Of a DNA stretch of 64,000 nucleotides, positions 33,019-33,975 are shown in pieces. The stretch's first letter is position 1, and every line of letters starts with the position of its first letter. The position numbers and the translations under genes are program-made. The notes under the pieces are model-generated. The model was not told the origin of the DNA and did no database searches. It saw nothing but the letters and a program-made list of their open reading frames with translations. The stretch comes from Mesobacillus jeotgali (GTDB lineage Bacteria > Bacillota > Bacilli > Bacillales > Cytobacillaceae): contig NZ_FVZC01000009.1 in the NCBI RefSeq assembly GCF_900166585.1, positions 868,001 to 932,000 on the forward strand, in the 5' to 3' direction.

Positions 33019-33110
33019 TCGCTATAAAAACAAGAAAATCGCTATAAAAATTATTTTTTCGCTATAAAAGAGAAAAAGTCGCTATAAAAATTGAAAAGTC
33101 GTTATATAAC
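33019..33110 (+). repeat. Five-unit, 20-bp periodic repeat (TCGCTATAAAA)
   Basis: The motif TCGCTATAAAA recurs with its C at 33020, 33040, 33060, 33080 and, degenerate (TCGTTATATAA), 33100, an exact 20-base period. The nine bases between copies differ and are A-rich. It lies in the gap between the divergent AAA ATPase and ynfA genes. Confidence 0.85.
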
Positions 33111-33667: not shown

Positions 33668-33705
33668 ATACATTGTAGGGTATAAAAAATAAGGAGGCAT
33701 TCTGA

Positions 33706-33939
33706 ATGAACGATATTACAGTTTACACTACAAATACTTGACCTTACTGCACAATGATGAAACAATTCCTTGAGGGTCAAGGATTAAACTACAAAGAAGT
33801 GAATGTTCAATATGATCAAGCTGCCGCGCAAAAGCTGGTAGAAGAAACTGGCCAGATGGGTGTACCGCAAACAAAAGTGAATGGAATCTGGGTTCTTGGT
33901 TTTGACCCGGATACACTTATGCAGTACGTGAAAAAATAG
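33706..33939 (+). CDS. Glutaredoxin-like protein with in-frame TGA at the first active-site Cys (candidate selenoprotein)
   Basis: ATG 33706 sits six bases after AAGGAGG. Codons read MNDITVYTTNT-TGA-PYC and then stay open for 66 more codons to TAG at 33937-33939, giving a 77-residue thioredoxin-fold protein. The later 'MGVPQTKVNG' block supplies the cis-Pro of glutaredoxin/NrdH proteins. TGA 33739-33741 falls exactly where family members have the nucleophilic Cys of CPYC, so selenocysteine (U-P-Y-C) is the natural reading. A hairpin starts at the TGA. Without SelB-type decoding a useless 11-residue peptide would result. The alternative is a Cys-to-stop mutation; selABD genes are not in this window. 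Own terminator downstream. Confidence 0.8.
33739..33779 (+). promoter_or_regulatory. Candidate bacterial SECIS hairpin
   Basis: Bases TGACCTT at 33739-33745 pair with AGGGTCA at 33773-33779 (seven pairs, one G-T), putting the TGA in the lower stem. Inside, AAT 33753-33755 can pair with ATT 33765-33767 around a nine-base loop that begins with G, about 15 bases after the TGA. This is near the usual bacterial SECIS geometry; the upper stem is weak, so folding should be computed. Confidence 0.5.
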
Positions 33940-33949
33940 ATTCTAGACC

Positions 33950-33975
33950 AAAAGAGGCGCAGGCCTCTTTTTTTT
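33950..33975 (+). terminator. Terminator of the candidate selenoprotein gene
   Basis: AAAGAGGC / GCCTCTTT with GCAG loop and eight T. Confidence 0.9.

Follow-up and report, generated by a model that had tools for sequence, protein, structure and literature searches.

An in-frame TGA at the catalytic position of a Mesobacillus jeotgali glutaredoxin gene: a probable selenoprotein with a conserved downstream hairpin

Does a small glutaredoxin-like gene with one in-frame TGA at the place of its catalytic cysteine encode a selenoprotein, or is it a broken gene? The question is raised by a locus of Mesobacillus jeotgali within a stretch of 64,000 nucleotides, analysed as a whole and called here the window; the gene and the elements described with it lie on its forward strand. 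The gene occupies positions 33706-33939 and is preceded by a ribosome binding site, AAGGAGG (33691-33697, read from the sequence). An ATG at 33706 is followed by 11 codons, the TGA (33739-33741), 65 sense codons and a TAG ending at 33939. Re-reading the sequence bears out the binding site, ATG, 11 codons and in-frame TGA of a preliminary description of this DNA. The open frame that it reported behind the TGA is also there, but its 66 codons include the stop. As for the dedicated terminator proposed at the same time, a 9-bp hairpin with a T run is seen by eye at 33950-33975 and is probably an intrinsic terminator, but the terminator scan did not list it. Upstream, at 33020-33105, an A+T-rich stretch between two genes contains several near-identical copies of TCGCTATAAAA, as judged by eye.

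With the TGA read as Cys, the 77-residue product matches the profile PF00462 (Glutaredoxin) at 65 bits, well above the cut-off of 22.9, and can be counted as a member of that family. Its best NCBIfam match, over residues 4-75, is the YruB-family glutaredoxin-like profile TIGR02196, at 84.0 bits, just below the cut-off of 88.55. Two other profiles are also related, although the protein scores under the cut-off of both. Uxx-star proteins (NF041212; 46.9 bits, cut-off 66) are likewise small and glutaredoxin-like, with Sec at the same place, but a second Cys is present in the window protein (U-P-Y-C). NrdH-redoxins (TIGR02194; 48.6 bits, cut-off 85.75) are likewise thioredoxin-fold CxxC proteins, from which the window protein would differ by Sec in place of Cys. 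A G-F-x-P stretch near the C terminus is what we take to be an NrdH-redoxin-like motif. The TGA, as putative Sec codon, specifies residue 12, the first position of U-P-Y-C, and a TGC at 33748-33750 encodes Cys15, presumed from the glutaredoxin family to be the resolving cysteine. The placement of the TGA at the first position of a CPYC motif, already proposed from the sequence, is confirmed by 113 distinct related sequences, in which this column holds TGA in 44 cases, TGT or TGC in 69 and nothing else (L150, L162 and L180 do not reach it). Thus, the gene shows one of the marks of a bacterial selenoprotein, a conserved in-frame UGA at the position of a redox-active Cys.

Another such mark is the presence of the selenocysteine machinery in the genome, here 4.63 Mb in nine contigs. 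The search found all four components: selA (560 bits), selB (364 bits, with SelB winged-helix domains) and selD (399 bits), each above its cut-off, and one tRNA-Sec match above the Rfam cut-off, with anticodon tca (UCA), 14 kb left of the window. Fifteen weaker tRNA-Sec matches fall below this cut-off, and those checked with ARAGORN sit among ordinary tRNA genes. selD has an in-frame TGA of its own, and the loop of a hairpin, GACGCAG-GTT-CTGCGTC (7 bp, 3-nt loop), stands 33 nt after it; a second, weaker one could form at 17 nt. Two formate-dehydrogenase-like genes, L127 and G000:C8:149452-150204, carry one in-frame TGA each. In L127, the one inspected in this respect, a hairpin with loop GGTCT is found 18 nt behind the TGA.

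A lone in-frame stop is the usual sign of a dead gene, and it may be asked whether a Cys codon was here mutated to TGA or misread as TGA in sequencing, all the more as two relatives are damaged, L086 by a frameshift and L093 by a broken start. Against this stands the distribution of the codon. In a protein search, at least 40 of 193 family genomes, among the matches listed, carry a copy of the gene with one TGA, 80-99% identical; the carriers that are named include species of Mesobacillus, Neobacillus and Bacillus. The closest relatives would likewise place the organism in Mesobacillus. Within that of the window, a TGA copy occurs in 20 of 21 genomes among the matches listed, the remaining genome being 66% complete. 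Four further carriers, all with selA, were met outside the family (G195, G314, G564 and G224, in a sample of 397 genomes of the order), the copy of G564 also having a broken start. Selection argues in the same direction: over 41 forms (820 pairs; L086, L093/L173 and L175 left out), pN/pS amounts to 0.067 for the codons preceding the TGA and, with the hairpin codons left out, to 0.118 for those that follow. Since purifying selection acts 3' of the TGA, the region behind the stop is expected to be made as protein. Judged from these comparisons, the TGA is shared far beyond chance, with purifying selection on both sides. A chance stop or a pseudogene is rejected on these two grounds, conservation and selection, and a mutated or misread Cys codon has become an extremely improbable explanation. 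Co-occurrence with selA, found in 40 of 40 listed TGA-carrying family genomes versus 132 of 153 others (Fisher p 0.0056, kinship uncorrected), is weak evidence because selA is so common in the family.

Some copies call for separate mention. In the Sec-glutaredoxin copies L086 and L161, from Mesobacillus boroniphilus JCM 21738, the frame is lost near the C terminus, either because the gene is really damaged or because of an error in sequencing. A TGA form with an intact hairpin and no open frame before residue 9 is represented by L093 and L173 (Salirhabdus sp. Marseille-P4669). L146 and L147, Cys glutaredoxins of the family, have an internal in-frame TAA and are perhaps dead genes. Finally, the Bacillaceae-like copies L055 and L084 come from records whose titles name Chryseobacterium sp. 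ISL-80 and Pseudomonas sp. ISL-84, probably wrongly.

UGA might also terminate translation in the ordinary way, the product being a 61-residue protein started at the ATG pair (33754-33759) behind it. This open frame, 33754-33939, is the form listed by gene callers: among the best 120 of 391 protein database matches, four 61-residue entries (P0019, P0041, P0049 and P0070) start behind the TGA. None of these 120 matches is a full-length entry above 89% identity, and P0002 has Trp at the place of the TGA, as expected if TGA had been translated as Trp. However, a 61-residue fragment would be deprived of the whole active-site motif, and the strong purifying selection on codons 1-11 (the value of 0.067 above) does not fit a product that begins behind the TGA. 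Termination with downstream restart thus retains hardly any likelihood, and read-through of the UGA is the preferred reading.

If the UGA is recoded, a signal should be found behind it. The bacterial SECIS model calls for a stem of 4-16 bp, a loop of 3-9 nt with a G in its first two positions, a distance of 16-37 nt from the UGA and an MFE at most -7.5 (PMC13188914, section 5). Downstream of the TGA, at 33767-33783 (loop 33774-33776), a hairpin scan finds TCCTTGA-GGG-TCAAGGA, which has this geometry with its 7 bp, its loop GGG and its distance of 32 nt. With respect to energy it is borderline, at -7.6 kcal/mol for a 52-nt stretch and -6.8 kcal/mol for the bare hairpin. Pairs were counted by script in the relatives: all 7 pairs around the 3-nt loop, at positions 28-44 from the TGA start, are present in 44 of 44 distinct TGA forms. 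The sequence TCCTTGA-NNN-TCAAGGA itself occurs in 42 of the 44, the exceptions being L093, with a single G-U pair, and L175, in which two pairs are changed. L175 is a TGA glutaredoxin of another family, 50% identical, whose loop also lies 32 nt from the TGA and whose changes are compensating, A-U and G-C pairs having become C-G and U-G with pairing kept. Throughout the 44 forms the loop starts 32 nt after the TGA, with G first and then G or T, and the loop codon varies in amino acid (Gly, Ala, Ser, Asp).

The stem is also marked by its codon usage. Among 41 TGA forms, synonymous heterozygosity at stem codons +9, +10, +11, +13 and +14 is 0, 0, 0, 0 and 0.048, versus 0.427 on average outside the interval from +7 to +14, and five random columns were equally low in 2 of 200000 draws. 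In 64 Cys forms, where other codons are used, the corresponding values are 0.435-0.746. Low synonymous variation also reaches +7, +8, +12 and +16, of which +7, +8 and +16 are outside the stem, so that the constraint may exceed the stem. From its geometry and its conservation, the 33767-33783 hairpin is likely to be the SECIS of this gene.

The preliminary description had pointed to another stem, pairing TGACCTT with AGGGTCA and beginning at the TGA itself. These segments can indeed pair (33739-33745 with 33773-33779, the whole spanning 33739-33779), and in the window's sequence this longer stem is the more stable fold (-11.4 versus -7.6). It might therefore be imagined that Sec is inserted by means of this element. 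It is complete in 20 of 44 TGA forms, 18 of which come from the window's genus; the other 24 break at least one of its pairs, whereas the 33767-33783 hairpin is intact in all 44. Moreover, its 5' arm contains the UGA and, with the UGA in the A site, would presumably lie within the ribosome. The longer stem is thus not the conserved element and is rejected as the SECIS; insertion by way of it is very improbable. Folding energy as such is not informative here, neither 33739-33778 (z 0.07) nor 33739-33790 (z -0.52) being separated from shuffles. Because they share bases, the two structures exclude each other. Positions 33739-33783 hence offer, in the window's genus, two mutually exclusive folds of which the longer is the more stable, an arrangement that might tune read-through.

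The machinery genes, a catalytic column restricted to TGA and Cys, and a downstream hairpin of the SECIS type thus support the idea of a probable selenoprotein. The gene very probably encodes a dithiol glutaredoxin in which Sec replaces the nucleophilic Cys and is inserted at the UGA through SelB and the 33767-33783 hairpin. Starting from what is observed here, namely the TGA, the machinery genes, the conserved hairpin and the two-sided selection, the insertion, the chemistry and the reductant may be envisaged as follows. Once the ribosome arrives at the UGA at 33739, SelB with its Sec-tRNA-Sec would bind the hairpin, and selenocysteine would be inserted in place of termination. In the protein, the U-P-Y-C selenolate would act as the attacking group on disulfides, with Cys15 resolving the intermediate and thioredoxin reductase or bacillithiol ensuring the recharging. 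These reductants are suggested because WVLGFDP stands where a glutathione-binding GG motif would presumably be, and because Bacillus-type cells use bacillithiol rather than glutathione. A glutaredoxin fold that has U-P-Y-C and lacks such a GG motif would point to the function of an NrdH/YruB-like disulfide reductase. The gene neighbourhood, considered as a further clue to function, suggests no partner: no conserved partner gene appeared within 3 kb on each side when eight neighbour proteins were followed across 73 loci, the matches being confined to nine TGA loci, all close to the window, and one Cys locus (L105, LepB at 44%).

Selenocysteine-containing glutaredoxins are not new in bacteria, as was pointed out at the outset. 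One of the UxxC type (PF00462) is that of Clostridium oremlandii (Kim et al., 2011, as cited in PMC9312934 and PMC13188914), and the same reviews place Sec-glutaredoxin among the verified families, in a limited number of species. With the C. oremlandii protein, the window protein shares the glutaredoxin fold, as deduced from sequence, a putative Sec as first residue of UxxC, and a TGA followed by a SECIS-like hairpin; it differs in belonging to a lineage of Bacillaceae nested among Cys forms. TGA glutaredoxins are common in the phylum, where 398 sampled genomes gave at least 44 matches with one TGA outside the window's genus; in 21 of 21 examined among those 44 listed matches, the TGA is at the same column. 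In these 21 sequences the loop lies 19-23 nt after the TGA, versus 32 nt in the window lineage, the former figure being that of the best-scoring hairpin per sequence by the same script, several of these hairpins being weak.

How the Bacillaceae acquired this protein may be approached through trees. When the TGA column is masked, a DNA tree of 105 rows (L086 left out of this and the other trees) requires 3 changes of the Sec label. Removal of the hairpin codons raises this to 4 (4-5 in the bootstrap, of which no fewer than 2 are forced) and leaves the Sec group with weak support. In a protein tree of 146 rows, from which L093, L146 and L147 were left out, 41 Sec rows cluster with 3 Cys rows in a single group nested within the Cys forms (SH-aLRT 83), with L175 apart; the protein is short, and the root, set with 37 rows taken from other parts of the phylum, relies on an outgroup that is not clean, one row falling on the wrong side. 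The Cys members of the TGA clade all have TGT. Stem and loop are intact in L047/L068 (Niallia endozanthoxylica); the stem is intact in L174, with a loop TTC devoid of G; and the stem has decayed in L131. All 7 pairs are kept in only two of the 69 Cys forms, L047/L068 and L174. selA gave no match in G258, the genome of L174, and is present in G003, to which L047 belongs, and in G007, to which L131 belongs. Because three Cys relatives within the TGA clade still have a hairpin, whether intact or in decay, Sec has seemingly been lost again. The simplest reading of these sequences would be one Cys-to-Sec gain in the lineage, then two or three reversions leaving a remnant SECIS. Since the TGA glutaredoxins sampled from the phylum have the loop of their best-scoring hairpin at 19-23 nt, a separate origin of the 32-nt hairpin fits, and the lineage seems to have passed from Cys to Sec independently. 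Other families, too, include Cys homologues that retain remnants of a SECIS hairpin (PMC1794560); for glutaredoxin, Table 1 of that paper gives three Sec forms and three Cys-to-Sec events, none in reverse. On balance, we lean towards the view that Bacillaceae converted a Cys protein into a Sec glutaredoxin of their own, the choice of codons encoding the SECIS, and that this step was undone at least twice, the graded decay of the hairpin recording a recent series of gain and loss in one small protein.

Sec-glutaredoxins are thus a known kind of protein, of which the Bacillaceae lineage is poorly annotated. No title on a Bacillaceae Sec-glutaredoxin was found in the open-licence literature, and it may be in print in subscription papers. 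A well-conserved selenoprotein would be added to the Bacillaceae, in place of the 61-residue fragments without active site shown by databases. Finally, 20 of the 21 genomes in the window's genus also have, among the matches listed, a Cys paralogue that is 68-77% identical. Because this paralogue is in the same cell, and because Cys forms with remnant hairpins exist in three near relatives, direct comparison is possible between Sec and Cys versions of what is nearly one protein.
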